IMG/VR virus record: IMGVR_UViG_3300021475_000018
Span: 1 to 52,603 of that record
DNA from: a virus
Direction: 5' to 3' (one strand)
DNA: 52,603 nt
Part shown: piece by piece, positions 6,771 to 52,149 of the stretch
How the letters are laid out: each line of letters starts with the position of its first letter
How positions within the stretch are numbered: the stretch's first letter is position 1
Translations under genes and position numbers: made by a program
The notes under the pieces: model-generated
The model's input: only the letters and a program-made list of their open reading frames with translations
Database searches by the model: none
Told to the model about the DNA's origin: nothing

Positions 6771-7091
6771 GTGTCGTTATTTCCGTGGCTCAATCAACCA
6801 CCGCCAACGCTCAAAGAGTTGACGCCACGGGAGCGCATGCTCGAACGGCTCAAATTCGGAGTACCGCTGGAGCTTGTGGCCCGTGCGGCCGGACTTCGTC
6901 CGGAAACTTTGAAGGAAGACCCGGAAGTTGACAAGGCGATGGCCGAAGGCGAGATTTTGTTGTTCGAACGCGCGCGAGACAGCAGCGTGACGGGTATCGT
7001 ACGGGCCGCTATGCGTCGGGAAGCGGAGAGCTGGCTGCCCAAGGCGGAACCCAGTTCGGCGGGTTCGCTGGAGGATTTGCTGCGGGACTAG
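6771..7091 (+). CDS. HTH-containing protein, possible small terminase
   Basis: 106 aa, GTG start just after a GTTTAAAC palindrome. The N-terminus carries the recurrent FPW motif (residues 4-6). Residues about 20-60 look like a helix-turn-helix (FGVPLELVARAAG, then LRPETL), followed by a helical region and an acidic C-terminal tail ending LEDLL. Small size, HTH and acidic tail suit a terminase small subunit, but the large subunit is 13 kb away and other DNA-binding roles are possible. Followed by a clear terminator. Confidence 0.55.
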   Translation: MSLFPWLNQPPPTLKELTPRERMLERLKFGVPLELVARAAGLRPETLKEDPEVDKAMAEGEILLFERARDSSVTGIVRAAMRREAESWLPKAEPSSAGSLEDLLRD

Positions 7092-7203
7092 CTGAATAAT
7101 GTTTGTGCGGCTTAAAGTCCGCATTCATCCATGGCGCGCGGTTATTCGCGTCCCGTTTCAAACATGCCGGGATACCCGCGTCATCTTCCCAGGGTAGCGC
7201 CAT
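7009..7203 (-). CDS. small PWED-motif protein, 64 aa
   Basis: The minus-strand ATG at 7203 has GGAG seven bases upstream. The protein opens MALPWEDD, matching the [YFL]PW[EQ] motif found in other proteins of this genome. The tail is Pro/Ala/Asn-rich. It lies downstream of the 7407 membrane protein on the same strand and overlaps the end of the rightward 6771 gene by 83 bases, so the last third is less certain. Function unknown. Confidence 0.5.
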   Translation of the reverse strand: MALPWEDDAGIPACLKRDANNRAPWMNADFKPHKHYSASPAANPPANPPNWVPPWAASSPLPDA

Positions 7204-20275: not shown

Positions 20276-21856
20276 GTGACCGTCTACCCCTGGGAGCAGC
20301 CTCCGTCTTTTTATCCGTGGCAGCAACCGCAACCTACGGAAGCGGAGCGCAAAGCGGCGATGCGGGCCAAGCTCCGCGATTTTGATTTCTATCGAGAGCG
20401 GTTCCTGCGCATCCGTCCGCGTGCCGGCGGCGAGCGCATCCCGTTCATTTTGAACAACGCCCAGCGCGTGTTGCATGCGCGTTTGGAAGAAGAGAAGAAG
20501 CGGTTCGGCATGATACGCGCGCTCGTGCCCAAGGCGCGGCGTATGGGCGTAAGCACGTATATTGGTGGACGCAACTTCCATCAAATCGGAACCATGTTCG
20601 GTCGGCGTGCGCAAGTGGTGGCGCACCGCGGCGACAGTGCAGCTAACCTGCATCGTGAAATCAAGGAGTTTGCCAACAGCTTGCCGGGCGCCGTACAGCC
20701 GTCGATTGGTGCCACCAACTCTTATGAAGTGATCTTTGACAAGCTCAAATCGCTTTACAAGGTGGCGTCGGCCGAAGGCGGCGATATTGGCCGTTCCGAC
20801 GATTTCCATAACCTGCATTTGTCGGAAGCCGCTTTCTTTGATAACACGGAAGACCTTTCGTCAGGTTTGCTGCAAACCGTACAAGACTTGCCCGGTACGG
20901 AGATTATAGAAGAGAGCACCGGCAACGGCCAGTCCGGCATGTTTTATAATCAATGCGAGGAAGCGGCGCGGCAGGGCAACAAAGGTCCGTGGCGCATCCA
21001 CTTCTTGCCGTGGCCCGTCATGCCAGAATATCGCCAAACTGTGCCGATCGGCTGGAAAGCACCGCAGGACTTTGAAGAGTACGCGCGCATGCATGGCGTG
21101 GACCGTGAACAACTGCATTGGTTCTGGACCAAGAACTATACGATAGCCGTCATGAACGGCGGGCAACCGGAGAAAATTCACCGGCTCACGCGTCAGGAGT
21201 ATCCGGCCATCTATAGCGAATGTTTCATGGCTGACAGTACGCTTGATTTCTTCCCGGCTTCCACCGTATCCGCGGCAATGGTGCGCAAACCGAACCCGTC
21301 CGCTGGGGCGCTGAAGCTGCTTTGCGTGGACCCAGCCGGTGACGGGCAGGACAAGCCTTTTGTCTGCGATCGGCAAGGCTCCGCGATCGGCGCTAAGGTT
21401 TGGGGCGAGCTGACAAGTCGGGACTACAACGTGCAAGCTGACTGGCTTGTGGCTACGTTTAAACGCTTCGATATGGATGCCATCCTTATTGACGTGACTG
21501 GCACTGGCAAAGGCCTGCTTGATGCCGTGCGGCTCCGCATGCGCGCGTACGGTCCCGAAAAAGTGGTTGCGGTCAACTTTGCCTGGGGTGCTTTGAACGA
21601 TACGTTGTACGGCAACCGACGTGCGGAGCTTCATGATAAATTTCAACGTTTCTTGCAAAGTGACGTGTACATACCGAATGACAAGATGTTGCAGGATGAA
21701 TGCGCCGCTTATAAATGGGGTGTGGGTGGTTGCCGCCGTGACGAAAAAGCGCGGCTGTTCATGACCCCAAAAGAGAAAATTAAAAAGGAGCTGAAGCCTA
21801 CGCGCTCGCCCGACCGTTTGGACGCCTGCGTTGTTTCGATGGCAATGGAGCTTTGA
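20276..21856 (+). CDS. large terminase subunit (TerL)
   Basis: 526 aa from GTG. ATPase part: Arg-rich Walker A-like PKARRMGVST (residues 85-94) and Walker B LHLSEAAFF with E184. Nuclease part: Asp-352 (VDPAGDG), Asp-406 (LIDVTGTG) and Asp-513/516 (SPDRLDA). It packages DNA into procapsids and cuts it. The N-terminus carries two copies of the recurrent motif (YPWE 4-7, YPWQ 13-16). A four-codon mini-frame (ATG at 20264) ends on top of the GTG, which may couple initiation. Confidence 0.9.
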   Translation: MTVYPWEQPPSFYPWQQPQPTEAERKAAMRAKLRDFDFYRERFLRIRPRAGGERIPFILNNAQRVLHARLEEEKKRFGMIRALVPKARRMGVSTYIGGRNFHQIGTMFGRRAQVVAHRGDSAANLHREIKEFANSLPGAVQPSIGATNSYEVIFDKLKSLYKVASAEGGDIGRSDDFHNLHLSEAAFFDNTEDLSSGLLQTVQDLPGTEIIEESTGNGQSGMFYNQCEEAARQGNKGPWRIHFLPWPVMPEYRQTVPIGWKAPQDFEEYARMHGVDREQLHWFWTKNYTIAVMNGGQPEKIHRLTRQEYPAIYSECFMADSTLDFFPASTVSAAMVRKPNPSAGALKLLCVDPAGDGQDKPFVCDRQGSAIGAKVWGELTSRDYNVQADWLVATFKRFDMDAILIDVTGTGKGLLDAVRLRMRAYGPEKVVAVNFAWGALNDTLYGNRRAELHDKFQRFLQSDVYIPNDKMLQDECAAYKWGVGGCRRDEKARLFMTPKEKIKKELKPTRSPDRLDACVVSMAMEL

Positions 21857-24889: not shown

Positions 24890-25408
24890 TTATTTCTTGT
24901 ACACAACGCGTTCACGGACGCCGGTATCTTCCGGCAGCGGCTTATCGAACAATCCGGGCGGGCTTCCACGCGCCATTTCTTGCGCCGCGGTTTGCAGGTT
25001 GTCCAGCACGCCTGCATCTGTCCATTCCAGCGTTGACGCATCTGGCATCGCCGATGCCGGAATGATCTTGATGACATCTTGGAAGGTGGAGAGGTAGCGC
25101 CACCCGCTGATACTGTTGAGAATGCCCTTGCCGGCTTGGAACATGGTTCCGGCACCCCAGCGTATCAGCACCCAATCGCCGATGTCGGCGCGCTGGCGCT
25201 TCAAGCCTTCGCCGTCTTTGTAGGTGAAGGCCATCGGACCCATGGCACGGATAACGCCGGCTTGCACGCCGTGTTCGCCGAGCTGGCGCGCAAGATCGGG
25301 AATAAGAATACTGCCAACTTTTGACGGCGGGTACGGAATTTGTACGGCGATGATATCGCGGCACGGTTCGCCGGCATCGTGGGGGATGTCGAAACCATAG
25401 ATGCTCAT
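24890..25408 (-). CDS. GroES-like co-chaperonin
   Basis: 172 aa. Residues about 15-115 follow the Cpn10 pattern: DIIAVQIPYPPSKVGSILIP, then a variable loop, GVIRAMG, ADIGDWVLIRWGAG and a final strand ending IPASAM. The C-terminal 50 residues are an extra, probably flexible, tail. Phage cochaperonins (such as T4 gp31) replace host GroES to fold the capsid protein. Here it lies between portal and scaffold. The start overlaps the upstream stop by ATGA. Confidence is good for the fold, moderate for the role. Confidence 0.7.
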   Translation of the reverse strand: MSIYGFDIPHDAGEPCRDIIAVQIPYPPSKVGSILIPDLARQLGEHGVQAGVIRAMGPMAFTYKDGEGLKRQRADIGDWVLIRWGAGTMFQAGKGILNSISGWRYLSTFQDVIKIIPASAMPDASTLEWTDAGVLDNLQTAAQEMARGSPPGLFDKPLPEDTGVRERVVYKK

Positions 25409-25641
25409 GCCTTATGCTCCTGTTTTAAGGCGACGGAAAATTCTTTCGCAACAACTTCCGGCGTGCAGCCTAGAAGCTGTTCAATTTCACGAAGGCCCGC
25501 TGCCTTGCCCTGCATCAGGGGGTCCACTGGCCTGCCCGCCAGGAATTGGTACACCGCCTCCCGCTGGCGCTGGCGCAGGAAGTTGAGCAGCAGCTTGGTT
25601 TCCGGACTGGCCAACCATTCCGTCAATTGTAGAGCTAACAT
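25405..25641 (-). CDS. small helical protein nested in the portal 3' end, 78 aa
   Basis: The ATG at 25641 lies 155 bases inside the portal gene, in another frame of the same strand. Contains a helical core (RQREAVYQFLAGRPVDPLMQGKAAGLREIEQLL) with normal amino-acid balance, and ends in an ATGA overlap with the GroES-like gene. The portal end it overlaps is a Pro/Gly/Ala-rich tail, which may tolerate such sharing. Perhaps a portal- or assembly-associated factor; no family recognised. Confidence 0.6.
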   Translation of the reverse strand: MLALQLTEWLASPETKLLLNFLRQRQREAVYQFLAGRPVDPLMQGKAAGLREIEQLLGCTPEVVAKEFSVALKQEHKA

Positions 25642-27424: not shown

Positions 27425-27431
27425 GGTGCCC

Positions 27432-27460
27432 CGTGTATGACAAAAGTGTATGACAGTCAA
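27432..27460 (-). promoter_or_regulatory. portal promoter with two operators
   Basis: Minus-strand TTGACT (27460-27455), 17-bp spacer, TACACG (27437-27432). Direct repeats of TGTATGACA lie at 27434-27442 and 27447-27455, 13 bp apart, covering the -10 and the spacer next to the -35. Repressor binding there would block polymerase. Confidence 0.7.
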
Positions 27461-27479
27461 GGCGTTACCGTACACTAAT

Positions 27480-27508
27480 TTGACGAAATCCGCAGCATCG
27501 GCTATTTT
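27480..27508 (+). promoter_or_regulatory. major capsid promoter
   Basis: TTGACG (27480-27485), 17-bp spacer, TATTTT (27503-27508), 60 bases before the ATG at 27568. The operators lie 25-46 bp upstream and could activate or be neutral for this promoter. Confidence 0.7.
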
Positions 27509-27567
27509 GTACCAATTCGCACGCGCCGGCCTGCAACGCCGGGGAACCATTGAAAGGGGTTATTCGC

Positions 27568-28500
27568 ATGCAGGTTATCGACCGCTCGCTGCAATCATCG
27601 CAGTACTGGCCCGGGCTGTTCGCGCTGTTCGGCATGGATTACGAACGCCTGTCACCGATCTACAAGCAGTTCTACGACGCCAAGCCCTCGGAAAAGGCGT
27701 TCGAAGAATTTATGACGGAGCGCGCTGGCCTGGGCCTCGCCGTACAGCAACCGGAATTGGAGCCGGTGCAGTTCGACGTTCCCAACGAAGGCTACCGCAC
27801 CCAGGTCACCCACGCGTCGTACGGGCTCGCCGTGGCGATCTCGCGCGAAGCCAAAGACGACAACCTGTACGAGGATGTCGGCGGCCGAATGATGAAAGAG
27901 CTGGCGTTTTCGGCGCGGCAGACGGAAGAGTACATAGCGCATGCTCCGTTGCAGGTCGCGTTCGATGCCGTCAATGGCCTGCGTGCGGATGGCGTGCCGG
28001 TTTGCTCGCCATCGCATCCGACCGCTGTTGGTCTCCAGTCCAACCAGCTCATTTCCGCCAACGCGTCGGAATTGGCATTCGAGAATGCGGTTATCCAGAT
28101 CGCGTATACTCGCAACGGCCGCGGCTTCGTCGTCAACGTCCTGCCCAAGCGCGTCATCACGTCGCCGGAAAACGGTCCGGAAATCCGGCGTATCCTGGGT
28201 TCGCCTTTGCAGTGGAATGCACAGACGAACAATATCAACGTGCTGCGTTCGACCGGCGCACTGCCGGAAGTTATCGAGACGCCCTACTTGGTCGATAAGG
28301 ACAACTACTTCGTCCAGACTTCCGAGCAGGACAAAGACAACGGGCAGGGCTTCACTTTCTGGGAACGTTCGTCGCTGGAAACTCGTGAAGATAGCAACTG
28401 GAGCAATCAGGCGTCCCTGATCGCGATCTGGTTCCGCTGTGCGGCTTCCGTCGTGGACTTCCGCACCGTGTACGGTTCGGCCGGTTCCGACAATCTGTAA
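27568..28500 (+). CDS. major capsid protein
   Basis: 310 aa. Pattern of HK97-fold major head proteins encoded by small genomes: an N-terminal helical arm (SPIYKQFYDAKPSEKAFEEFMTERAG), P-loop/E-loop region with GLAVAISREAKDD, then strands and spine helices (ENAVIQIAYTRN) and a C-terminal beta end. Length fits such capsids. AAGGGG precedes the ATG. Strong promoter, a terminator after it and divergence from the portal mark it as a highly expressed single-gene unit. Confidence 0.8.
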   Translation: MQVIDRSLQSSQYWPGLFALFGMDYERLSPIYKQFYDAKPSEKAFEEFMTERAGLGLAVQQPELEPVQFDVPNEGYRTQVTHASYGLAVAISREAKDDNLYEDVGGRMMKELAFSARQTEEYIAHAPLQVAFDAVNGLRADGVPVCSPSHPTAVGLQSNQLISANASELAFENAVIQIAYTRNGRGFVVNVLPKRVITSPENGPEIRRILGSPLQWNAQTNNINVLRSTGALPEVIETPYLVDKDNYFVQTSEQDKDNGQGFTFWERSSLETREDSNWSNQASLIAIWFRCAASVVDFRTVYGSAGSDNL

Positions 28501-28598
28501 GGGGTTGACGCCCGCTTTGGAGTAGCGTACGTAAGCAGTGTGCGGTGGCATCTTGCTATCGCTGCCCTCCTTGGGCGTTTCCTCCCTATTGACTTGGC

Positions 28599-28629
28599 GG
28601 CCCCGCTGTACGACGCGGGGCCGTTCTTT
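28599..28629 (+). terminator. rho-independent terminator after the capsid gene
   Basis: GGCCCCGC pairs with GCGGGGCC around the 8-nt loop TGTACGAC, followed by GTTCTTTC. Lies between the converging capsid and ParB-like genes. Confidence 0.75.
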
Positions 28630-28631
28630 CA

Positions 28632-29531
28632 TCAGGCGGCCTTCGCCATCGGTGGCAGCCAATCGGGCGGCGCCGGCAGTTCCTCCCCAGGAGCCAAACG
28701 CGCGTTAGCCGGCCGGCGAAAGTCAATCACGGACAGCAACGCCCGCCCCGCCTCTTCTGCCTTCGGCCTGGGGCCTACCGAGCGCGCGGCCATGTCGATA
28801 CGCGGCCAACCCAGGTCAAGCAACCGGCGGGCGTGGTCACGAAACGCAGGGTAGTTGTGCACGAGCCACACAAAGCCAAGCGTCGCGTGTTCCGTTACCA
28901 GCGCATTCGGCGGGGCCAGCGTGGCGATCATTTCCAACGCGGTCACAAGCTCGCCCGGCGGTACAGGGGTTGCTCGTTTGGCGTAGCTTGCGCTGCCGTG
29001 ACCGTACAGCGATTTCAACGCGCCGACGCAAGCAAGTTTCGGCACGGTAAATTCGTCGCGTTGGTTGTTGGCGTCCACAACGGCCAAGCCGGCGTTCTGC
29101 ACGAGCCGGTTGAGCTGCACGGCGCTTTCGTCACCAGCCGCAACTTCCGCCATGAACAACATGGTTTGCGGCACCTTCCGCATTTTGGTGTTGCGCGAAA
29201 GAAAAATCTCGATTTCGCGCTTGCGGTCATGCACGTTGTAAATATCGCACGGAACGAACAGACGCGCGGACGCTTTCGCGCCTTCCCAGCGGTGCCGCCC
29301 GTCCACGACAAACAGCGCACCGTTTGCGCGCCGTACGACCATGAGCCGGCCGAACAGTGTCAAGTCGAAAGTCTTACCGATTTCCTTTACCAGCCGTGGG
29401 TTGCGCGGCTTCATTGCTTGATACGTCGTATCGACATTCAACAGTCCAATCGGAACCTCGGTTGGTTCCGGTTTTTCTTCGATGATAACGACGGGTTTCT
29501 GTTCCCAAGGGAACATCTTCGCGGTACTCAT
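28632..29531 (-). CDS. ParB/Srx-like domain protein, 299 aa
   Basis: The ATG at 29531 follows AGGAGCCGTACAA. Residues about 25-100 are a ParB N-terminal-type fold (GLLNVDTTYQAMKP, RLMVVRRANGALFVVDGRHRWEGAK), whose DGRHRW motif is the nucleotide-binding or nuclease core of this superfamily. The rest is helical with an HNHH-free DNA-binding-like region. The N-terminus has the FPWE motif (residues 7-10). Single-gene leftward unit with its own promoter. Could act in DNA partition, regulation or host nuclease; unproven. Confidence 0.7.
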   Translation of the reverse strand: MSTAKMFPWEQKPVVIIEEKPEPTEVPIGLLNVDTTYQAMKPRNPRLVKEIGKTFDLTLFGRLMVVRRANGALFVVDGRHRWEGAKASARLFVPCDIYNVHDRKREIEIFLSRNTKMRKVPQTMLFMAEVAAGDESAVQLNRLVQNAGLAVVDANNQRDEFTVPKLACVGALKSLYGHGSASYAKRATPVPPGELVTALEMIATLAPPNALVTEHATLGFVWLVHNYPAFRDHARRLLDLGWPRIDMAARSVGPRPKAEEAGRALLSVIDFRRPANARLAPGEELPAPPDWLPPMAKAA

Positions 29532-29570
29532 TTGTACGGCTCCTTTGCTAGCTGCGCCCCTACGTGAGTA

Positions 29571-29599
29571 CAAATACGGATGACGTGTGAATATGTCAA
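29571..29599 (-). promoter_or_regulatory. promoter for the ParB-like gene
   Basis: Minus-strand TTGACA (29599-29594), 17-bp spacer, TATTTG (29576-29571). Confidence 0.7.
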
Positions 29600-29680
29600 T
29601 ACCAAGCTTGACTTGCGGCGGCAAATCACCGCATGTGCGCACAACTGCACACTTCACAGTCAGGGCGGAGGGGGCGCTAC

Positions 29681-29926
29681 ATGCAGGGGTACTGGTGGGC
29701 ACGGACACCCGAAAATGCGCTATTTGTAGTCATGGTGGTGGGTGAAAAGGGCTATGTTCCCGGGGTGGAAGGTGCTATAGATTTAGGCGACTTTTTCATG
29801 ATCGAGCCCGTCCCATGGCCGCGACCCGCAACCCAAAGCCAAAATTCGGTTCTGCCGTCACCTGGGGCGCGTGCTCTCGTTGCAACGCCCGGGTCAAATA
29901 TTCTACCCTTTGTCGCGAGAGGTTGA
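29681..29926 (+). CDS. hypothetical protein, 81 aa
   Basis: GGAGGGGG lies before the ATG. The first about 50 residues (QGYWWARTPENALFVVMVVGEKGYVPGVEGAIDLGDF) are compact and beta-like. The last 30 lie in the same stretch as the start of the next gene in another frame and look less protein-like. It leads the rightward tail-adaptor unit. Unknown function. Confidence 0.55.
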   Translation: MQGYWWARTPENALFVVMVVGEKGYVPGVEGAIDLGDFFMIEPVPWPRPATQSQNSVLPSPGARALVATPGSNILPFVARG

Positions 29927-30423
29927 CTGGCCTTCTGGTTTGCGGGCCCGCCAGTGGCCGGCCGGTCCGCTACTGCCTTGATCCGTGGCCCCCGGTGTAC
30001 GACTTCCAAGCCTTTCCAGATAAGTCAATCGAGCCGCCGGCCGAACCGCTGCCGCTGCGCTACAACCTGGATGCTATCTGGGGCAACGGTCCGGTGTCCG
30101 GCAATACCAGCGACTTCGCTAACGCGCCCGCCGCGGCGCCGGACGACGCTACCCGGTTGAACAACTTGCTTCGCATGGTTCCGTATTACGCGGCTGCCGG
30201 CAAGACGGCTGCGTTCACGCCCCGAACGCAGGGTATCGACGTTGAAGTCGCAAAGGTGCTTTTAATCAATCCAGCGAATTACGACGGTACCTTTCTTCCG
30301 TCTAGTTCTGTACGGACGGTGACGCCGCCAATCGAAAGTCCGTCCAGCGTCACGCAGACGGATAAAGACGTGCCTTCCGATCAACTTTGGACGCCCCCAT
30401 GGGCGGTAAACCAAGGCGTTTAA
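29815..30423 (+). CDS. head-tail region protein with Cys motif, 202 aa
   Basis: ATG at 29815. The N-terminus has CSRCNARVKYSTLC and later C residues (LVCGPASG, VRYCLDPW), probably a zinc site. The C-terminal two thirds is Pro/Asp-rich with a helical segment (ATRLNNLLRMVPYYAAAGKTAAF). It sits before the gp4- and gp10-like genes. Its stop codon is the TAA of a GTTTAAAC palindrome. No named family; probably a head-completion or adaptor accessory. Confidence 0.65.
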   Translation: MAATRNPKPKFGSAVTWGACSRCNARVKYSTLCRERLTGLLVCGPASGRPVRYCLDPWPPVYDFQAFPDKSIEPPAEPLPLRYNLDAIWGNGPVSGNTSDFANAPAAAPDDATRLNNLLRMVPYYAAAGKTAAFTPRTQGIDVEVAKVLLINPANYDGTFLPSSSVRTVTPPIESPSSVTQTDKDVPSDQLWTPPWAVNQGV

Positions 30424-35338: not shown

Positions 35339-35851
35339 CTACCTAATAATGCTGTATACGTACGCGTCTTGCGGTTCCGTACTCACATTAGGAAAATGCG
35401 CATACCGTCGCAACCGGCCTTCGCATTTCGCGCCCATGCGCTCCAATACACGTTGTACGGGTACGTTGTCAACGTGGCAATAAGCCCAGGTCCGCCAAAT
35501 ATGCGGGTGCGACATAATCCACTGTACGAATGGCTTGGAAAACTCCCGGCCGGCGCCGCGGGCCTTCCAGTCGCGTCGAAACATGATCGTTACCGCGGCT
35601 TGGTGACCTTGCACTTCCAAACCGACGATGCCCAGGATATCCGGTGGGCTGTCTTCTTGGCACACGGCTTGCCACCGTGCCTTGCTCTGCTGATAGAGCT
35701 GGATTAGCGCCGTGGCGTCGTCCACCGACTTATGTACGGGGAAGCCCATGTAGCGCATCACGTTGTGGTCGCCGGTCAAGGCAAACACCCCCGGGCCTTC
35801 CCAGGGGTGAATGTCGCGGATGATGAAACGACTATTTCCGACTTTGGCCAT
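35339..35851 (-). CDS. GNAT-family acetyltransferase, 170 aa
   Basis: Starts at 35851. N-terminus RFIIRDIHPWEGPGVFALTGDHNVMRYMGFPVHKS is a RimJ/RimL-like start. A strand-helix block with DILGIVGLEVQG and RDWKARGAGREFSKPF follows, then WAYCHVDNVPVQRVLERMGAKCEGRLRRY, the acetyl-CoA loop and end strand of GNATs. A phage-encoded acetyltransferase may modify a host or phage protein or small molecule. Transcribed leftward in the early region. Confidence 0.7.
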   Translation of the reverse strand: MAKVGNSRFIIRDIHPWEGPGVFALTGDHNVMRYMGFPVHKSVDDATALIQLYQQSKARWQAVCQEDSPPDILGIVGLEVQGHQAAVTIMFRRDWKARGAGREFSKPFVQWIMSHPHIWRTWAYCHVDNVPVQRVLERMGAKCEGRLRRYAHFPNVSTEPQDAYVYSIIR

Positions 35852-37053: not shown

Positions 37054-39080
37054 TCATTTGCGCATCCTATCCGCTTCGTACCCCTCGCAATCCAGCGGCA
37101 GCCCGGCAGTCCACGGCCGCGGCCGGCGCATAATTTCGCGCATCTGCTCTGAGCGCTGCTTGGCAATGTGAGCCGGCGCCAGCGAGAGTATGCTATCATA
37201 GACATCAAGGACCAACACAACATCCGGCAGCTCGTTCTCTATGTCAGCTTCCGCCGCGGTCACCAAGTCACGCGTACAGCTTGACAGAAGATTTCGAGCA
37301 GCGAACCGCCGAAAGCTTTCTGTCGCATCATGGCACCAAACTTCGCCCGGAAAAACTGCATTTCTCCGGTTGGCGAAATGTGTGCAGAGTAGTGCGGTAC
37401 CGCGCGACCGGACGGCAACAACATCCACACCGTACCATGACTGTCTTTTTGGAACGCGATTTTATTGTTGACTGGGAAGATACGGCCGTGCTGTTCATAG
37501 ATCGCAAATTTGAAGGCATCGGCCAAGTCGTACCAAAGCCGTACGAGTAGCGGGTTGGCTTGGCGATAACCGTTGATATCGATCATGGCTTTTTGGTCGG
37601 TTATCTCGTGACGCTTCAAACCGTTTTCCGCGGCCGTACGGATAAGGAACGCGAGATATGTACGCCAACCGAGCTGATAGTTGCCGCCAAGCGTGACGCT
37701 CTTGAATGTCTGCCGTTCTTTTGGATGCGTGGATTTGGTAGCGGTTTCTGGCAGGTTCAGACACTTCCGAGCGTTGTACATATACAAATCGCTGCCCGGC
37801 GTCGCAATGATATTTAAACGTTCCGTGTCGCCAGCGAGCCAAAGCGCGAAACGCAATTCCGCCTGGGAAGCATCGTTATCGCATACCATCCAGCCTGTAG
37901 GTGCCACGATGCAACCGCGAAGGCAGTCTGTCAGGGCGCTATTGCCTAGCGACGTATGACCCTGCTTCAGCCGGTCAATAAGCTGGTCTATCGTGGCGCG
38001 GCCTTCCTTGCCGTCGTACTTGCCGGACGGGCGCGCAATGTTGAACATATTCGCGCCTTCGGATGTGCCGCGCCCCGATCGCGCGCCGAAGTACCGTGTA
38101 GCGTCTTTGTAAAAACCGTTGACGTGCCGGTCTAGCAACGCTTGCGCTTTAAGCGGCGCGGAGCCACCCTCCGCCTGCAACAGCTCCAGAACAATCCGTA
38201 CGTCTGGGTGCAGGTTTTCGTCAGTAAGTTTTTCCGCGATAATGTGCTTCTGCGTATTCTCCAGTCCGGCAGCGCGGTTACCGCTATTGGCCCAATCGAG
38301 TATCCGCTGCCGCTGCGAAAGCTTGGTCACCGCGTTGTTGGTGATTTCCATAAGCTTCGCGGTGCTCTCCTGCTCGATTTCTTGCCGACGCATCGCAATC
38401 GCGGTTGCCAGATTAATATCGATCGGGAGCCCGATTTCGTTTTTACGCCATGTGCGCTCAAAGATCAGACGTTCGGCCGGTGACAGCGGAGGCAAGCGTG
38501 CGTCAACATCCATGAGGCATTCAACGTCGCGCAAGTTGTACGCGAGCAGCTTGACGAACGTTTCGATTTTTTCGTGGAACGTGCCGTCTTTCTGCGGCTT
38601 GCACGTCAGCGTCACGAGCGCGCGGCCTTGCGGGTCTTTGCCCCGGATACCAAGCGCCATACATAATTCATCAAGGCCGCCCGGGAACGCGATAGCTTGG
38701 GCGCGGCCCATTGTGCAATCAATCTTGCTCAAATCGATTTGTACGAACGGATTTTGCCGCTTAATCACGTTCACGTCGAAATTGGCGTGATGCGCAACGA
38801 AGCGCCGGCATTGCCGGATATCTTCGTAAAAGTCCGCCATCGTATGGGAGCCGATAGACGGATGTAATGTGCATGCAGTTTTGTACACACCGCGGAACCA
38901 CCAACACGCCGTGGTTATCTGGGTGGATGGGCATGCTGCATAGCGTCGCGCGCCCGCCGTCTTCAGGTTCGTACGGCTGCGTGTTTCTACATCGGCGAAT
39001 AAGTCGTCAAGCTGCGGCACGTAGCACGCTTTCAAAGTTGAGAGAGCGGGTAAAGCCCTTCGTCTGCCAATTCGATGCAC
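37054..39080 (-). CDS. DNA polymerase A, frameshifted near the C-terminus
   Basis: Family A polymerase with exonuclease. Exo motif at LFADVETRS, then DinB-free palm: motif A DNDASQAELRFALWLAGD, motif B ERQTFKSVTLGGNYQLG. The first frame stops at 37260 soon after FGGSLLEIFCQAV, exactly where such enzymes continue AxARDLL. The continuation (TRDLVTAAEAD, then motif C-like LDVYDSI) is in the -1 frame and runs to 37054. One base seems to be missing near 37274-37280. Start is GTG at 39080 or 39020; neither has a clear ribosome site. Motif C has Tyr-Asp-Ser in place of His-Asp-Glu. Confidence 0.85.
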
Positions 39081-39181: not shown

Positions 39182-40096
39182 TCAGCGCGAAGGCCAAGCA
39201 CCGCCCTGCGTAGCGGCGCCTGGGAAGGTTTGCTGCGGCTGGTTAGAAGGGAATGTCGCATTCCCATTTGGCGCGCCGGGCATCCCACCATGGGCCTGGG
39301 CACCCCCGAAAGCAGGCCCCGCCGTATTCTGAGGGGCAAACCCCCCTTGCGGGCCTTGATGTGGGTTCCCAGGGAAACCGTTGCCGTTCTGCGGTCCCTG
39401 GGGTGCCGTAAAACCCCCATGCTGCGGAGCCCCGCCGAAGCCCTGGGGCGCGGTCCCAAAGCCTCCGTTCTGCGGACCGCCAAACCCACCCGGCGACGGA
39501 TTGAAGCCCGCCGGCCGGTAGCCCTGGGCCTGGGCAGCCTGCATCAGCTCGGCTCCGCTGATCGAGTTGCCGATAGCGATTTCCTCGCCGGGCGCCGTGA
39601 ACACCACGTTGTTGATGTAGAGCTTGATTGCACGGGCATTCTGCGAGTTGACCGCCACCGCTCCGCCGACGATGCAGAAATCGCCGGGCTTCACGATGTT
39701 GCCGCGGGCCTGGAGCGGCACGAGCGTGGCGCCCTGGGACAGTTCGACTTTGATCGCGTCACCGGAATTACCGGAAAACATCCACTGGCCGCGCGCCCAA
39801 TCAGCCGGCGGCTGCTGGGGGTCTTGCGGCATGTCACCGTCACGAATGGGCCACGTCACTTGCTCGTAACCGAGCCCGCCCATGGTCGCGGCGTGAATTT
39901 TCTGCATCGCACCCCAAAGGTTCTGGAAGACGGGCTCCATAGACCAATGCGACTGCGTTTTCGGCACGAGGAAACCGCCGAGCCAATTTGGCTTCGTTGT
40001 CTGGCCTCTGAAGTCGGTGCTGGGTTGCCAAAGATTTTTCATTCCGTATACTCGCGCGCCGAAACACATAAAGTTTTCGTACTGCTTTTTCGCCAT
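39182..40096 (-). CDS. phage ssDNA-binding protein (DUF2815-like)
   Basis: 304 aa. N-terminal about 190 residues are an OB-like core (FGARVYGMKNLWQPS, KPNWLGGFLVPK, GDFCIVGGAVAVNSQN, IKLYINNVVFT), matching DUF2815 single-stranded DNA-binding proteins. The C-terminal about 100 residues are Gly/Gln/Pro/Asn/Phe repeats, a disordered tail ending AWPSR. Binds ssDNA during replication and recombination and recruits partners through the tail. Located with nuclease, helicase and polymerase genes. Confidence 0.8.
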   Translation of the reverse strand: MAKKQYENFMCFGARVYGMKNLWQPSTDFRGQTTKPNWLGGFLVPKTQSHWSMEPVFQNLWGAMQKIHAATMGGLGYEQVTWPIRDGDMPQDPQQPPADWARGQWMFSGNSGDAIKVELSQGATLVPLQARGNIVKPGDFCIVGGAVAVNSQNARAIKLYINNVVFTAPGEEIAIGNSISGAELMQAAQAQGYRPAGFNPSPGGFGGPQNGGFGTAPQGFGGAPQHGGFTAPQGPQNGNGFPGNPHQGPQGGFAPQNTAGPAFGGAQAHGGMPGAPNGNATFPSNQPQQTFPGAATQGGAWPSR

Positions 40097-41732: not shown

Positions 41733-42215
41733 TCAGCCGCCCATCAACTTCGCCATGTTCTCCAACTGAGGCATGCCGAGCGTGGGAACCTTGAACTGCC
41801 AAATCTGATCCGGCGTCATGTTGGCCAGATCGGGCGTGTTGCCGCACTGGCCGCGGAGCCACGACAAGGCCTGAGCGGCGCTTTCCGTGCTCATGGCGGC
41901 GCCGGCATCGTACTTGGCCTTGATGCGCTCGATAAGGGCCGCAGCCGCGGGCGCTGGCTGGGGGGCGCCTTGCGGATGCGCGTTCGGGAAGCCCCCGCTT
42001 GCCGCCTGCCCGGCGCCGGGGAAACCGCCCTGAGCGGCGCCCGAGTCGAAAGTCTGCGTTTGGGGCGGCATGATCGGGTTTGGCGCGATATGGCCGCCCG
42101 CGGCACCCGCCGTACCGGTTTCGGGTTCGTCCGCACCGCCCTTGCCGCCGCGCGTGCCTTTCAACCGCTTGACAAATTCCTGCACTTCTTCGACCGAACT
42201 AAATTTCAATTCCAT
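41733..42215 (-). CDS. Pro/Gly-rich early protein, 160 aa
   Basis: ATG at 42215. The N-terminus is a helix (KFSSVEEVQEFVKRLKG), the middle is a low-complexity Gly/Ala/Pro/Gln linker, and the C-terminus is helical (PAAAALIERIKAKYDAGAAMSTESAAQALSW...ANMTPDQIWQFKV). First gene of the recombination/replication unit under a strong promoter. Looks like an adaptor that links DNA-processing enzymes; unassigned. Confidence 0.65.
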   Translation of the reverse strand: MELKFSSVEEVQEFVKRLKGTRGGKGGADEPETGTAGAAGGHIAPNPIMPPQTQTFDSGAAQGGFPGAGQAASGGFPNAHPQGAPQPAPAAAALIERIKAKYDAGAAMSTESAAQALSWLRGQCGNTPDLANMTPDQIWQFKVPTLGMPQLENMAKLMGG

Positions 42216-42299: not shown

Positions 42300-43973
42300 T
42301 CATCTTTGATGCAAAACCCCGTGCACGTCATAAACGCCGCCGACAAGATACCGGCCGTTCTGCGCCCGCTTCAAATAGACCGAATGCGGCGCGGGCAAGT
42401 CTTCGTACGGCCAAATCGCTGTAGCATACATAGTCGTGAGCAACCAACCGCCCGCGCTGTTCTTGACCGGTGGGGAAACGATTTGCTGCCACGGGTTCTT
42501 TTCAATCAGGGCTTTGACGTTGACGGCTTCAGCCCCGCCGCCGCGCGTCTTCAGGTCTTTGCCCGGAGCCTGCGATATCGTGTTGTCGAAACCGCAGAAC
42601 GGGCACAGCGGGTGCAGGAACGCGGCGTACACTTCTTCGCATGCGGCACATTGCTTGACTTCAGTTTGCTGCTGTCCGCAATGAGGGCAGCGCATGCCGT
42701 GGAAATGCGGGTCAAAACGCTCCGTACACATTTTGCACTTGGGCGCGCTCTTGTGGATTTCGCCGCAGCCCGGGCACGTCTTGCCGTGCTCCCAGGTTTC
42801 CCACTCTCTGCCGCAACCGACGTACAGCTTGCCGCCCTTGGTGATTTCTTCGCATGTCAACGCGCGGCCGGGCGAGGCCATCACAGCGTCAAGCGTGCCG
42901 TGCCGGTCAAGATTGCCGCCAAAATCGGATAGTAGACAGTTGGCGGCGTACGGCGTGATCCGCGCACCGCGGCCCAAGCCTTGCGCGTAGTAGACGGCTG
43001 ATTTGGTGGCGCGACAGAAAGCCATATAATCGATATGCAGCATGTCAAAGCCGGTGTTGAACATGTTGCACGAAACTAGCAGCGGTACGGCTCGCGCCTT
43101 GAAGGCAATCACTGCCTTGTCGCGCTTGCCGGGTGGCGATTGCGAATGAACGCCAACGGCACAACCTGGGTGTATTTTATTGAGCTGCCACTCCAGCTTA
43201 TCGACGTGTTCGACATTGCAGCAGAACGCGAGCGCGCAACGCCGGTTAAATTTCGTCATTACTTCGATTATCGTTTTGGCGTGCGAAGGCGCGAGCTTGA
43301 TCGCCCTGGGCGCTTGTTCGTCGAGATCGAAGTCACCCTTGACAACAGCGAGCCCGGCAACATCGATTATTTCATCTTCGCCGGCATCGACGGGAACGAT
43401 GGGCTTCACGTAACCGTCGCGCAATGCGTCCAAGAAGGTGTAGCGGAATACGATCGGGCCGAACGTCTTTGCTAAATCGCCCGTGCCGTCGGCGCGGAAA
43501 GGCGTGCCAGTGAGCCCGTGGACTTTGGTGTGCGAGAGCTTTTCGAACAGCCGGCGATATTGCGACGACTTGGCCGGCGGCACCATGTGCACTTCGTCCA
43601 CCAAGATTGCAACGACGTCGCGGAACAGATTGACGCGGTTGATGATGGTGCCGATGGTGCCCACCGTCACGCGCGCAAAGGCATTTGTACTTATCGACGA
43701 CGAACAGATACCCGGGCTTATGCCGTGGTTCTTTGCCGCGGCGGCGTTGTGGCCTACCAGCTCTTTGTTGTGGGCAACGATCAGGACGCGGCCGAACTGG
43801 CTGTAATGTAGCGCCAGCATGCCCAGCATGTCGCTCTTTCCCCCAGCAACGGTTATTTCGGCCACCGAGAAGCGTCCCTCGTACGCGATCAGGGCGGAGA
43901 CGCCGGCCGTTTGGTGCGGCCTGGGCGTCCACAGTACGGGCGTTAGCGCTGTTGTGTTGTTCCAGAAATTCAC
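42300..43973 (-). CDS. superfamily 2 helicase with zinc ribbons, 557 aa
   Basis: GTG start. Walker A variant VAGGKS (residues 42-47), DEVH (126-129), TGTPFR (155-160) and QGLGRGAR (331-338) are the SF2 helicase motifs. The last third has several CxxC pairs (CPGCGEIHKSAPKCKMC, CPHCGQQQ, CAAC, CPFCG), zinc ribbons. Likely unwinds DNA or translocates for replication or recombination, or processes transcripts. Last gene of the 45189 leftward unit. Confidence 0.85.
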   Translation of the reverse strand: MNFWNNTTALTPVLWTPRPHQTAGVSALIAYEGRFSVAEITVAGGKSDMLGMLALHYSQFGRVLIVAHNKELVGHNAAAAKNHGISPGICSSSISTNAFARVTVGTIGTIINRVNLFRDVVAILVDEVHMVPPAKSSQYRRLFEKLSHTKVHGLTGTPFRADGTGDLAKTFGPIVFRYTFLDALRDGYVKPIVPVDAGEDEIIDVAGLAVVKGDFDLDEQAPRAIKLAPSHAKTIIEVMTKFNRRCALAFCCNVEHVDKLEWQLNKIHPGCAVGVHSQSPPGKRDKAVIAFKARAVPLLVSCNMFNTGFDMLHIDYMAFCRATKSAVYYAQGLGRGARITPYAANCLLSDFGGNLDRHGTLDAVMASPGRALTCEEITKGGKLYVGCGREWETWEHGKTCPGCGEIHKSAPKCKMCTERFDPHFHGMRCPHCGQQQTEVKQCAACEEVYAAFLHPLCPFCGFDNTISQAPGKDLKTRGGGAEAVNVKALIEKNPWQQIVSPPVKNSAGGWLLTTMYATAIWPYEDLPAPHSVYLKRAQNGRYLVGGVYDVHGVLHQR

Positions 43974-45273: not shown

Positions 45274-45582
45274 TTAATGCAGGGCGTCCCAAAATCCGAC
45301 GATTAGGCCCTCGTCGTCTTGCAAGAAACCGCCGCGCTCCAGCCGAACCCATTCATTCCAGCTCGGATAGGACGTGTATATACGGCGCCATGGGCTATCC
45401 GTACTCTCGATTACCGCCAGATTTGGCGTCTCAAGAGGTTCAGTTTGCTGGCAAATGTCCACGCAGGCCAGATAAGCGCCCCGACCGGGCGGGCGAGTAT
45501 GGATGGCACGTATCTCGTTGGCATATGCCGGGGGCGCTAGAGGGCTGCCGGCGACGAATGAGAAAGGCCAATAGCGTGTCAT
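45274..45582 (-). CDS. hypothetical protein, 102 aa
   Basis: ATG at 45582 behind TTGGAGGTACTGCC. Mixed alpha/beta with many aromatic residues (RYWPFSFVAGSP, SPWRRIYTSYPSWNEWVRL). A longer upstream frame lies over the next gene and was rejected. No family recognised. Last gene of the 50130 leftward unit. Confidence 0.6.
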   Translation of the reverse strand: MTRYWPFSFVAGSPLAPPAYANEIRAIHTRPPGRGAYLACVDICQQTEPLETPNLAVIESTDSPWRRIYTSYPSWNEWVRLERGGFLQDDEGLIVGFWDALH

Positions 45583-45917
45583 GGCAGTACCTCCAAACCT
45601 AGTTCGTGCGCCGTCTCCCAAACCTGCTTCACAAGCTCGCGTACGGACGCAATGTAGGGCGTGTTTGGCTGGGGCATGCCGACGTCCTGAAATTCGAGCG
45701 TGCTGCCGTCCGTGAACTTGCACTCTCCCCGTGGGATGATTTGACCCCTGGGCGTGTTCACAAGCCGTTGCAGCGCCGGATGCTTGCTATGGACCAGTAC
45801 GCCCGTGAGCTGTACGGCAATGGCAAAATCACGTTGCAGGGCCGCCACCTTGTCTTCAGTGGTCGGCTGCGCCGGTACGGGCGGCTCCCAGGGGTATCGT
45901 TGGATTTCGTTGCTCAT
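45579..45917 (-). CDS. hypothetical protein with N-terminal YPWE motif, 112 aa
   Basis: ATG at 45917 in an ATGA overlap with the upstream gene. RYPWEPPVPAQP at residues 7-18 is one copy of the recurrent [YFL]PW[EQ] motif. The rest is a soluble beta-like domain (TGVLVHSKHPALQRL, RGECKFTDGSTLEFQDVG). Unassigned. Confidence 0.65.
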   Translation of the reverse strand: MSNEIQRYPWEPPVPAQPTTEDKVAALQRDFAIAVQLTGVLVHSKHPALQRLVNTPRGQIIPRGECKFTDGSTLEFQDVGMPQPNTPYIASVRELVKQVWETAHELGLEVLP

Positions 45918-46078: not shown

Positions 46079-46340
46079 TTCTGTCATCCTCGATTGGAGC
46101 GCATTCATCGCAACGCAGCTCTCCGCCGTCGCTGTCTTGGCCGGTTTCGTCCGTACCGCACCACCAACCGCATCCGACGCACTCAAATACGAGTTGGTCA
46201 AGCGTGGCGCAAAACGTTGCGTTATCGACGTACTCCGCCGGCAGTTCAAGTGTTTCTAAAACTTCAGACAGCGATATAGTGGTATCGCGAATTTCATCCG
46301 CAACTAGTTCTGCGGCTTCCACTGGTCCGATCGTTCCCAT
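46068..46340 (-). CDS. zinc-ribbon protein, 90 aa
   Basis: ATG at 46340 overlapping the previous gene's tail. Acidic, with a C-terminal ribbon (CVGCGWWCG, then CDEC). Part of a run of small metal-binding early genes. Unassigned. Confidence 0.65.
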   Translation of the reverse strand: MGTIGPVEAAELVADEIRDTTISLSEVLETLELPAEYVDNATFCATLDQLVFECVGCGWWCGTDETGQDSDGGELRCDECAPIEDDRNAD

Positions 46341-46564
46341 GGTAACGCCTTTCGTAAGTACGTTGCATCTTCAGGATAGATTATCGCGCCTAAATCTTCG
46401 TTATAGGCGTCTGTCCAAACCACGGCAATAGTTCCGGCTTCAACGACAGTGACGGTTCCGCGGCTAGCGCCGGAACAGACAACATCGCCCACGGCATACT
46501 TTGGAGGCTCAGATGCGTGGCTCCAAGGATACACCGCTTTCCGTCCGCTGTCGTCTTGCCGCAT
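46304..46564 (-). CDS. small protein with two PW motifs, 86 aa
   Basis: ATG at 46564 (a TTG at 46615 is an upstream alternative). YPWSHASEPPKY near the start and LPWE at residues 74-77 both fit the recurrent motif. The core (VGDVVCSGASRGTVTVVEAGTIAVVWTD) looks like a small KOW/SH3 barrel. Overlaps the next gene by 37 bases. Another frame from 46599 opens with LPWEDWDG and a CKCG pattern and may be real in part. Confidence 0.6.
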   Translation of the reverse strand: MRQDDSGRKAVYPWSHASEPPKYAVGDVVCSGASRGTVTVVEAGTIAVVWTDAYNEDLGAIIYPEDATYLRKALPWERSDQWKPQN

Positions 46565-46601
46565 TTGCAAATCCCGTCCCAGTCTTCCCAGGGGAGCATG
46601 G

Positions 46602-46781
46602 TTACCCTTTTTCAATGATGCGTCGCGCCGCCATCATCACTGTGGCTTCTTCCGTTATGGAAGGGCGGCGCTGTGTTGCTGCATACGTGCTCCAGTACAG
46701 CAACACGAATTTGTAGCGTTCGGCGCATGTCGAGCATTCGCACCGATGATCGTTGCCGTCTGGCGTGACTAATTTTGCCAT
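46602..46781 (-). CDS. small Cys-rich protein, 59 aa
   Basis: ATG at 46781 behind a variant leader (copy 6) whose 12-mer also encodes the end of the primase-helicase. CECSTC at residues 14-19 suggests a metal site. Basic C-terminus. Overlaps the primase-helicase stop by 13 bases. Confidence 0.6.
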   Translation of the reverse strand: MAKLVTPDGNDHRCECSTCAERYKFVLLYWSTYAATQRRPSITEEATVMMAARRIIEKG

Positions 46782-48832
46782 GGGTAGCTCTCCAGCTTGG
46801 TTGTCGGTGTTTGAACGGTCCAGTTAACCGTAAGAGGCTGTTGTACGTTTCCGGCGGGCGAATAAACCGCATAAAAAGGGCATCCGCGCATCGTACGGAA
46901 GTGTCCCGAATTTAGCAAGCTCTGCATGCCCTCTTTTTCAAATAATTTTAGGGCAGCATCCTTGCTGATGACGAAGGCCGGCACGGAACCGTGTACGGAT
47001 GCACCCAGTTCGGCGGCGACACTATCAAAGGGAACCATGTTGCCGGCGCGAAGCGCGTCCATTCCGCCGCTAGTGACGCCGGGCAGCATCGCGCCGAGCC
47101 GTATCATGGCACTCTGTTCGCGTTGCTGCGGTGTTGTAATGATTTCGCGTTTAAACACATTCACCGTTGTTGCACGCCCCTTGCTGTCGTTGCCGTAGTG
47201 TTCGGAAATAATTCTCCCGGTGTAGCTCTTTGCCTTTGGCGCGCCGCGCGCTTTACCGCAGTCGATTGACACCGTGTCTTGCCGGCCAGCGGTGACGCGA
47301 TACATGAAACCGCTATTGCCGGCCTTGGCGCCGTTGCCTTTCTGCCAAGCATCCTCATTGCCGAGCGGCAAATGGTCCGTAACAACCATCGCTGCGCCCG
47401 TACGAAATGCGACATTTTTCAAAATGAACATCGCCTTTAAAACGCTTTCGGTATCGTTGTCGGCAAAGCAAAGCCCCGACGACGCCCAGGTATCCAGCAC
47501 GAGCAAGTCAACGCGCATGCCCATGGCGGCCATCGCAGCAACTTGGCCTAGGCAATCTTGTTCGAAGGAGCCGGAATTGACGCGCGGTATTAGATGGAAG
47601 CGTGAAGCTAGCTCGTTGCCGTTCGGTTCCTGCCGGATAAGATGCCTTACGCGTCGTTCTGTGCCGTAATCGTCTTCAGCGGCAACCCATAAGACATGAC
47701 CGTCCGTACGTTCCACTTCCGCGTCAAGCCATGCTCGGCAAGTGAGATAAGACACGCAAAGGTCGCTAACGACAGATGATTTTCCGGCTCCGCTGTGTCC
47801 GGTAAAGAAGTGAACTTCGCTACACAAAACGCGTTGATATAGTAGCCATGGTAACTCATTTGTGCTGTCCTCCAGTTTCAGCTCAAAGCCCGTACGAGCC
47901 TGCAACGTCGGCGCCGTTTGTCCGTCATGCAAACCTTGAAGAAACGTACGGCGCGACATGATAGCTTGCATTATCAGATTGCCGCGCAACACCGGCAACT
48001 GATCATGGCGCATGATTTCTTCGCCCAGGACGCGCCCGCCGTGACCTTCGGATAACGAGTGACCCGCGCTGGTTATCGCAGTTTCGATTTCCTCTCGTGT
48101 GCACATGCCGTTCTGCTCGGCGAACTTCAGCACCCCGACAAGCGAAAAAATCGTGGACCCGCGGCCCTCCGTACGGCCCATCAAGTCTTGCTTGAGCAGT
48201 CCTAAGTATCGTTTAGTGGCGTCGCGGCCGGCTTGCCATTCATCTTGCGTTCTAGGAATAGCTTCTGAAAGTTCGTCAGCTCCAGCGGTTTCGTGCTCGG
48301 CTCCGAACCGCAGGGACGTACCAGCCTGACGCGGCACTTCTGCAAGAATATGCTGAAGCTGTGCTGTTGTAATTTGCGGCCACTCTGCATCCCAATTCTC
48401 CCATTCGTACGGCTGTCCGGTGTCTTTGTGCGGGCCGAAGGCGACGAATTGTCCGCCCATCAATTGGAGCTTATCGCCGTCCGGAAATGTGAAAGTGCGA
48501 CCCTGTACGGGTGCGTCACGCAGAAAGAACGGTATCAGGAAACGCGGCCGTCTTCCCCATCGGATAGGAGTGTTCGGGCCGAGTATAGTACGAAACGCCT
48601 GCAAGAGACGCCCAGACATTTCGGGGTTTGATACGTCACAGTCAAAAGCGGTAAGGCCGTTGTCTCCGCAGCGGAGGCCCACGCTGCCGGCGCCTGGGTG
48701 GGGGATTGGTGATGTCCAGACATTCCAGCCGTCTCCTATGGGAGCTTTAGAACCCCTTGCGATAGCTAGCGGAAACAGTCCGCGCTGTACGGCTTGCGTC
48801 CAGAAGTCCTGAATGGTAAGAGGTAAAGGCAA
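46769..48832 (-). CDS. primase-polymerase / DnaB-type helicase, 687 aa
   Basis: TTG start (TGATTG, GGGGGC site). N-terminal about 210 residues resemble a primase-polymerase (TAFDCDVSNPEM metal-binding Asps at 64/66, RWGRRPRFLIPF). A RecA-like ATPase follows: Walker A GHSGAGKSS (345-353), LLVLDTWASSG Walker B and TDHLP. So it can prime and unwind at the fork. Ends ESYPWQN, one copy of the YPWQ motif. A bidirectional terminator is just upstream, so expression is controlled there. Confidence 0.85.
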   Translation of the reverse strand: MPLPLTIQDFWTQAVQRGLFPLAIARGSKAPIGDGWNVWTSPIPHPGAGSVGLRCGDNGLTAFDCDVSNPEMSGRLLQAFRTILGPNTPIRWGRRPRFLIPFFLRDAPVQGRTFTFPDGDKLQLMGGQFVAFGPHKDTGQPYEWENWDAEWPQITTAQLQHILAEVPRQAGTSLRFGAEHETAGADELSEAIPRTQDEWQAGRDATKRYLGLLKQDLMGRTEGRGSTIFSLVGVLKFAEQNGMCTREEIETAITSAGHSLSEGHGGRVLGEEIMRHDQLPVLRGNLIMQAIMSRRTFLQGLHDGQTAPTLQARTGFELKLEDSTNELPWLLYQRVLCSEVHFFTGHSGAGKSSVVSDLCVSYLTCRAWLDAEVERTDGHVLWVAAEDDYGTERRVRHLIRQEPNGNELASRFHLIPRVNSGSFEQDCLGQVAAMAAMGMRVDLLVLDTWASSGLCFADNDTESVLKAMFILKNVAFRTGAAMVVTDHLPLGNEDAWQKGNGAKAGNSGFMYRVTAGRQDTVSIDCGKARGAPKAKSYTGRIISEHYGNDSKGRATTVNVFKREIITTPQQREQSAMIRLGAMLPGVTSGGMDALRAGNMVPFDSVAAELGASVHGSVPAFVISKDAALKLFEKEGMQSLLNSGHFRTMRGCPFYAVYSPAGNVQQPLTVNWTVQTPTTKLESYPWQN
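46786..46797 (-). promoter_or_regulatory. variant leader hairpin (copy 6, compensatory change)
   Basis: AGCTGGAGAGCT: same GGAG tetraloop, but the outer C-G pair is A-T. The hairpin lies within the primase-helicase tail and serves the ATG at 46781. Confidence 0.65.
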
Positions 48833-49131: not shown

Positions 49132-49656
49132 TTACGACGATTGCCACGGATAAGTCAAATTGCTTTCCATGGTATTTTGTACCGTTTCGCAGCCTATGGC
49201 GCGCATGGCCGCCGGCAACTCGTATTGCGCGAGCCGGGCTTTCAAGACTTGTACTTCGGCGAACAGTTCGCTGTTGCGTGAGTACAGCCCAGCTAGTTCC
49301 TCCGCCACCGTTGCTTTGTACATACGAAGCTGTTCCAGCTCCGTAGTATCAATGGGTGCTTGCGCCGGGGTGCTCTGTACGGTGGGCCTTGAAGTGCCGC
49401 CGCGGGAGCCCGGGCCGCCATTTTTGCGCTCAGCGCGACAAGTTGGGCAGTTGCGGAGCAGCAAGCCGGCATTCTTGGTAAAGCCTTGCAAGGCTTTCCG
49501 TGAAACGCTCAGGCTGATCTCGCCGCGGCACGTCGCGCATGGTCGGGTTACGCGGTATAGGTGGATGTAATCGCCGTTCCAGTATTTCGTGGTTGCTTCA
49601 CCGCCGCTCCAGCCTGCGGGGAGCGGACCGTCGAAAGGTGCTTGCATGTTGGCCAT
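49132..49656 (-). CDS. Cys-containing protein with YPWQ tail, 174 aa
   Basis: The ATG at 49656 overlaps the upstream stop (TGATG). Zinc-ribbon-like region: CATCRGEI and CPTCRAE, with Lys/Arg loops. A coiled-coil-like second half (EQLRMYKATVAEELAGLYSRNSELFAEVQVLKARLAQYELP) follows, ending YPWQSS. May be a multi-contact adaptor. Unassigned. Confidence 0.65.
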   Translation of the reverse strand: MANMQAPFDGPLPAGWSGGEATTKYWNGDYIHLYRVTRPCATCRGEISLSVSRKALQGFTKNAGLLLRNCPTCRAERKNGGPGSRGGTSRPTVQSTPAQAPIDTTELEQLRMYKATVAEELAGLYSRNSELFAEVQVLKARLAQYELPAAMRAIGCETVQNTMESNLTYPWQSS

Positions 49657-51720: not shown

Positions 51721-52149
51721 GTGAAACTGACAACCAACACACATTTCGAAGCGGTTAAGGTCGTTACGCCGCAGGAAGCTGTGACATACGTCGTTCTCCA
51801 GCGTGCCAATCGACGTTACGGCAGAGGCATGACCATGGCCAAGAAAGAGCAGATCAACTGGAACAGCTTCACCAAAGCGGAGCTAATCAAAACTATCCGT
51901 ACGTTGCACACGCGGCAGACTAAGTTGCTCAACCGCATTGCGGAGCTGGAGGCTCAAGTTGGTAAATACGATCTGCCCGATATCTCGAAATTGGAGCAGC
52001 CTCGGGACGCCGGCAGCACGGCCGTACAAGGGCCGGCGTCCCACATGGTGGGCGCCGCGCAACGGTATCCCTGGGAAACGCAGCTCGCCAACACCGTGAC
52101 GTACGAGCCCACCAACGGCAAGCCGAACTGTCGGAAGGAAAACGAATGA
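51721..52149 (+). CDS. protein with YPWE motif, 142 aa
   Basis: GTG at 51721 behind AAGGGGGC. Coiled-coil-like middle (NWNSFTKAELIKTIRTLHTRQTKLLNRIAELEAQV) and a flexible C-terminus with RYPWETQLAN (116-119). Unassigned. ATGA overlap with the next gene. Confidence 0.65.
   Translation: MKLTTNTHFEAVKVVTPQEAVTYVVLQRANRRYGRGMTMAKKEQINWNSFTKAELIKTIRTLHTRQTKLLNRIAELEAQVGKYDLPDISKLEQPRDAGSTAVQGPASHMVGAAQRYPWETQLANTVTYEPTNGKPNCRKENE

Follow-up and report, generated by a model that had tools for sequence, protein, structure and literature searches.

Unrelated proteins of a clade of uncultured soil phages share a short Pro-Trp peptide at their termini, probably a docking tag

Why should one phage repeat the same four-residue peptide near the ends of proteins as different as a terminase, a ParB-like protein and a primase-helicase? 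The question was raised by the genome analysed here, a 52.6-kb record of an uncultured phage (the window, taken at its full length), which belongs to a little-known clade of uncultured soil phages comprising 26 genomes with the window included. A sequence-only reading had listed [YFL]PW[EQ] peptides in nine of its proteins and suggested that they may dock their carriers to one hub. Every listed motif was found in frame, in the proteins and at the positions named (Table 1), but the FPWL of the 106-aa protein is a variant with a hydrophobic fourth residue. Gene calling on the window and 25 other clade records gave 2250 proteins, and the strict tag was defined as [YFLMWV]PW[EDQ], counted as N-terminal within the first 20 residues and as C-terminal within the last 15. 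The gene caller and its choice of starts were our own and are approximate, and the ORFs at 7009-7203 and 46304-46564 in the window were overlooked by it; since the same gene set was used for the shuffles, approximate calling does not create the motif excess described below. A genome scan found neither prophages of the clade nor a host.

Table 1. Coordinates of tagged proteins in the window and of untagged proteins relevant to the search for a partner
Protein	Position	Strand	Peptide (residues; nucleotides)	Match	Occurrence in family or clade
106-aa protein	6771..7091	+	FPWL (4-7; 6780-6791)		N-terminal hydrophobic-PW in 13/19 members
64-aa protein	7009..7203	-	N-terminal LPWE (3-6; 7186-7197)		
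Terminase large subunit (TerL)	20276..21856	+	YPWE (4-7; 20285-20296), YPWQ (13-16; 20312-20323)	phrog_2, E 5e-19	
ParB-like protein	28632..29531	-	FPWE (7-10; 29502-29513)	phrog_1033, E 2e-9	tag in 6/6 members
Family A DNA polymerase (PolA), candidate hub	37260..39080	-	untagged	phrog_17, E 6e-49	26/26 genomes
Phage SSB, candidate hub	39182..40096	-	untagged		26/26 genomes
41733 core protein, candidate hub	41733..42215	-	untagged		25/26 by gene family
SF2 helicase	42300..43973	-	PWQ, 61-64 residues before the C-terminus		invariant in 26/26 genomes
112-aa protein, no assigned function	45579..45917	-	YPWE (8-11; 45885-45896)		strict motif in 15/20 called members
86-aa protein	46304..46564	-	N-terminal YPWS (12-15; 46520-46531), C-terminal LPWE (74-77; 46334-46345)		C-terminal tag in 9/12 members
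ORF with CxCGK..DGxRC..GATH domain	46390..46599	-	N-terminal LPWE (46585-46596)		
Primase-helicase (Prim-Pol + AAA_25)	46769..48832	-	YPWQ (683-686 of 687, inside the last five residues; 46775-46786)	PF13481/PF09250	
174-aa Cys-rich/coiled-coil-like protein	49132..49656	-	YPWQ (169-172; 49141-49152)		C-terminal tag in 18/20 members (relaxed pattern)
142-aa coiled-coil-like protein	51721..52149	+	YPWE (116-119; 52066-52077)		

The peptide is far too frequent at protein ends to be fortuitous. Across the clade, the strict tag occurs 52 times at N-termini and 62 times at C-termini, against 2.1 and 1.4 expected from shuffled proteomes, that is, 114 terminal instances versus 3.5, an enrichment of about 30-fold. 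The interior of the proteins shows no excess over the same 26 genomes (10 observed versus 11.9 expected). The 114 instances count orthologues repeatedly, and a count free of that repetition gives 25 non-homologous families with the strict tag versus 3.5 by shuffling (maximum of 7 in 200 shuffles). Scrambled motifs of identical composition yielded 0-4 terminal matches and no comparable excess, and a polar or charged first position ([DENKGSTR]PW[EDQ]) yielded nine. Relaxing the fourth position instead gave 53 terminal matches, which for the most part represent this tag carrying A, S, T, G or N there. Chance or composition as the origin of the peptide is ruled out by the shuffles, the terminal-only shuffles and the scrambled motifs, and its recurrence near the ends of unrelated proteins proved stronger than originally claimed. 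Over the 25 families the consensus reads [KR][MFYL]PW[EQD], with Lys or Arg often placed one position ahead of the hydrophobic residue. The preferred tag residue differs among the genomes of the clade; within a genome, the first residue agrees between unrelated proteins in 39% of cases, a level reached by none of 5000 permutations (26% when permuted). Such agreement would be expected of tags shaped by one partner, although the shared ancestry of the genomes may also contribute to it.

A repeated DNA element overlapping gene ends, such as an operator, a terminator or a Shine-Dalgarno-like site, could in principle generate such a peptide, given that the motif sits at gene ends and that TTCCCnTGGGAA is nearly palindromic. 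However, the 90 instances of the first 19 genomes are encoded by 50 distinct 12-mers, in which every one of the four Pro codons occurs, as do both Glu codons and, at the first position, eleven different codons, including ones as unrelated in sequence as ATG, TAC, TTT, CTC and TGG. Moreover, eight of the 12 DNA-level matches in the window lie in frame and in the sense orientation of called genes, and the two uncalled ORFs explain some of the remaining four. Codon usage and frame thus refute an origin in a DNA element, to which we assign a negligible probability, and together with orthologue conservation they bear out the earlier view that the peptide is kept at the protein level.

With regard to the individual proteins of the window, one instance had escaped the sequence-only reading, namely that of the ORF at 46390-46599, which starts with MLPWEDWDG. 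Between 46304 and 46599, the minus strand encodes two conserved, overlapping ORFs in different frames, and both are PW-tagged. The YPWS of the 86-aa protein counts for little, because its DNA also encodes the conserved C-x-LGATH of the overlapping ORF. Homologues of the 112-aa protein found in primase loci carry N-terminal WPWE, MPWE, FPWD, YPWE or FPWE. In the 142-aa protein, YPWE lies 23 residues short of the C-terminus, and two relatives keep YPWE or FPWE near theirs. The relatives of the 64-aa protein share IPxxLKRDANN and an N-terminal PWE tag, some having a C-terminal one in addition. The 106-aa protein, possibly a small terminase subunit, has no match in Pfam or PHROGs. An HPWE in a GNAT protein (35339-35851) is probably unrelated to the tag, since it is conserved in the closest relative only.

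Orthologues retain the tag while the surrounding sequence drifts. Nearly all of about 60 TerL relatives with at least 60% identity harbour an N-terminal PW tag, often duplicated and with divergent linkers, as illustrated by the starts MTVYPWEQPPSFYPWQ, MFPWEASPV, MPWETPPVQ, MLPWEQAAIQQRMPWERP and MNFPWQFPWAI; in a few of them Ala or Pro precedes PW (APW/PPW) instead of a hydrophobic residue, and TerL relatives at about 32% identity lack the tag. Among 28 relatives of the primase-helicase, nearly all keep a C-terminal PW followed by at most a few residues, the exceptions being those of L036 and G006. In subclade 2, a different primase family of about 760 residues, also of AAA_25 type, again ends in [ML]PW[EQ]. 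The tag is mobile between families and between termini: it is C-terminal in relatives of the CACGK-domain family and N-terminal in the window, and in G007 a C5 methyltransferase, with both FPWE and MPWE, has the CACGK domain fused to it. Tandem tags occur in several families. Some members of the tagged families are devoid of the strict motif, which speaks against the docking reading proposed below.

The tag is also present on enzymes that seem to have been acquired from other phages. The N6/N4 methyltransferase of G004 ends in RIEPYPWEMP; its homologues in Pseudomonas and Klebsiella phages, 62-69% identical, can be aligned up to residue 234-235 and then continue into unrelated, untagged tails. 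A second type of methyltransferase ends in KMPWEA/T or AMPWD in three phages of the clade and is untagged in its homologues (53-58% identity) from Synechococcus phage S-CBS3 and Alteromonas phage XX1924. This comparison alone gives no direction of change, but all five homologues read outside the clade are untagged, so that acquisition of the tag within the clade is the more parsimonious reading. In single clade genomes, Dam-like, C5-type and radical-SAM-like proteins carry it as well.

The recognisable tagged proteins mostly act on DNA or package it, a description that covers only these, since several tagged proteins lack an assigned function. None of the core genes identified in the virion region, among them those of the portal, the head closure protein Hc3 and a DNA-ejection-like protein, carries the strict tag. 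A peptide maintained at the protein level on unrelated carriers probably serves to dock them, and the statistics, the conservation among orthologues, the replacement of one primase family by another and the tags on seemingly acquired enzymes argue strongly for docking. We therefore propose, with a probability of roughly 70%, that the tag is a terminal docking motif through which non-virion proteins that process or package DNA reach a single common partner, probably some part of the phage replication machinery that is bound to DNA. On this proposal, [KR]-[MFYL]-P-W-[EQD], borne by a flexible tail at either terminus and often in tandem, would allow the primase-helicase, TerL, the ParB-like protein, DNA methyltransferases and small accessory proteins to bind that partner and thereby become concentrated on phage DNA. 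As to the single hub suggested by the sequence-only reading, no partner was singled out, and we infer it together with its location at the replication site. A more general address code, whereby any DNA-acting protein, foreign enzymes included, could be tagged to reach the site of replication and packaging via a phage-encoded DNA-bound hub, has in our estimate somewhat less than an even chance.

Two other roles for a terminal peptide were considered. The tag might load proteins into the capsid for entry into the host along with the DNA, in the manner of an encapsulin cargo peptide or of the T4 capsid-targeting sequence; its use at either terminus of unrelated cargo would suit such a role, and a primase, methyltransferases and ParB could conceivably help upon entry. 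Yet TerL, which acts outside the capsid, is tagged in nearly all relatives, and no cleavage pattern follows the tag, which makes capsid loading most improbable. A degron or stability signal, compatible with a terminal position at either end, is rated just as low, as the carriers (primase, terminase, methyltransferases) are needed in quantity during infection, and we know of no bacterial degron of the hydrophobic-PW-[EQD] form.

Docking peptides common to several DNA enzymes are known for clamps and SSB. The PIP box and other clamp-binding peptides (PCNA, T4 gp45, bacterial beta clamp) are, like the tag, short and borne on the flexible termini of many unrelated DNA enzymes, and the location of the tag (52 N-terminal, 62 C-terminal, 10 interior) on several such enzymes agrees with this pattern; the tag, however, departs from the QxxPhi or QL[SD]LF (QLxLF) consensus of clamp motifs. 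No bacterial-type beta clamp (PF02767) was detected in eight genomes of the clade; the host would have its own sliding clamp. In T4, the clamp-binding peptide is C-terminal on the gp43 polymerase and N-terminal on RNase H (PMC3012046). The C-terminal tip of SSB (DDDIPF) shares a hydrophobic-Pro-aromatic core with the tag, but it consists of an acidic stretch and PhiPF with a free carboxylate, whereas the tags are N-terminal in nearly half of the cases, contain Trp in place of Phe, are often preceded by Lys or Arg, and can be internal to the tail. In addition, the SSB tip is carried by SSB itself, whereas the SSB of the clade has no tag, and the direction differs, one tail serving many partners in the former case and many tags presumably converging on one partner in the latter. 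In T7, the C-terminal tails of the gp4 primase-helicase and of the gp2.5 SSB dock on gp5, a family A polymerase; these tails are acidic and end in Phe, and the clade SSB has none of this kind. A literature search, with most subscription papers outside its scope, brought up only the eukaryotic PEX39 motif: the (R/K)PWE of PEX39 and PEX13 docks two unrelated proteins on PEX7 through its PWE core (PMC12339391). There the basic residue stands directly before Pro, a position mostly occupied by M, F, Y or L in the tag, and the common core is presumably convergent. By the sequence features compared, the tag appears to act like a PIP box or an SSB tip while being a member of neither; its conserved short core, divergent flanks and recurrence in unrelated proteins are those of a generic short linear docking motif.

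Candidates for the partner were sought among the untagged non-virion core genes of the clade, namely PolA, the SF2 helicase, a Cas4-like exonuclease, SSB, the 41733 protein and a VRR-type nuclease. The nuclease is more likely a client than a hub, because its C-terminus reads WPW[VAS] in four genomes of subclade 2, and the PWQ of the SF2 helicase, which lacks the hydrophobic residue of the tag, may be structural. Covariation of the tag residue with core proteins made no family stand out, and 46% of the variation follows genome relatedness. SSB, whose fold matches DUF2815 (4klk, E 5e-8) and Enc34 SSB (5odk, E 6e-7), is tentatively ranked first. It has a long Pro/Gly-rich tail with a conserved tip of its own, mostly NPFxPR or AWPxR-like, unlike the usual acidic tip. 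In a structure model of a natural read-through in G004 that joins SSB and a tagged methyltransferase, the methyltransferase half mostly has a pLDDT below 50. PolA comes second, as a doubtful candidate; its gene (37054-39080, minus strand) is interrupted in this record by a frameshift near 37263. Since the closest relative and other members of the clade read through, an error of sequencing or assembly is the probable cause. The 41733 protein, placed fourth after a host factor, is quite unlikely to be the partner. Profile searches detected it in all seven tagged genomes tested, and its model comprises a short N-terminal helix, a disordered linker and a helical domain of about 70 residues, with no fold match in the PDB. 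Every tagged genome tested contains both SSB and the 41733 protein, and the untagged outgroup G027 has neither; G027 being a distant record, this absence says little. Some partner other than these four is improbable.

Beyond the clade, K-M-P-W-E-stop was matched by at least 120 viral contigs, versus some tens expected by chance in a rough estimate that assumes the collection size. Among the matches listed, most of those read are the C-termini of TOPRIM/DnaB-type (T7-gp4-like) primase-helicases of about 570 residues from low-GC phages, with variable linkers. The remainder comprise SSB-like proteins of the DUF669 and DUF3127 types, one exonuclease-like protein and a small peptidase-like protein bearing FPWEKMPWE. 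This double tag ends small M90-peptidase-like proteins in another low-GC phage group (L207, L213, L218 and L332). A single protein per record carries the tail among the records read, and five KMPWE records read whole contained no second convincing tag, apart from one possible LPWE. A DNA-pattern scan for tandem MPWE gave one clade match together with records almost all devoid of C-terminal tags. PF00476 (PolA) was not detected in the extra-clade records whose KMPWE primase tail was examined; phage PolA, rejected on this ground, cannot be the universal partner of KMPWE tails.

That unrelated phages with no detectable family A polymerase carry KMPWE tails on primase-helicases, and that covariation singled out no phage partner, would also be in keeping with a tag that addresses a host factor (replisome, polar organiser, chaperone or protease adaptor) instead of a phage protein. 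A common host factor would, however, be expected to attract more widely than the single proteins seen in the extra-clade records read, and the preferred tag residue differs between clade genomes; we consider a host factor, third in our ranking, to be unlikely.

If the shared-partner docking proposed above is correct, the tag would be a clear natural case of modular addressing, involving 25 families, both termini and acquired enzymes within one small phage clade. Its four residues would provide a handle with which to find the organising protein of the phage, allow tagged proteins without known function to be assigned to a common process, and perhaps serve for cargo recruitment in laboratory systems. 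Since primase-helicases of unrelated phages have this core at their C-terminus too, a replication motif of wider distribution may exist.

The gp4-like primase-helicases of cultured flavophages, including Cellulophaga phi10:1 (L325), and of a sewage phage end in an SSB-tip-like [DE]PhiPF or KEIPF (records L325, L345, L346 and L348), while their uncultured relatives end in [DE]KMPWE. An SSB-like protein beside the KMPWE primase ends in DDLPF or EDLPF, which suggests that PhiPF and KMPWE, alternatives on the primase, are probably distinct signals. In the window itself, a 51-bp segment (18539-18589) has 91% identity with Bradyrhizobium phage ppBeUSDA76-1; positions 10000-30000 have no other nucleotide match in the phage collection.
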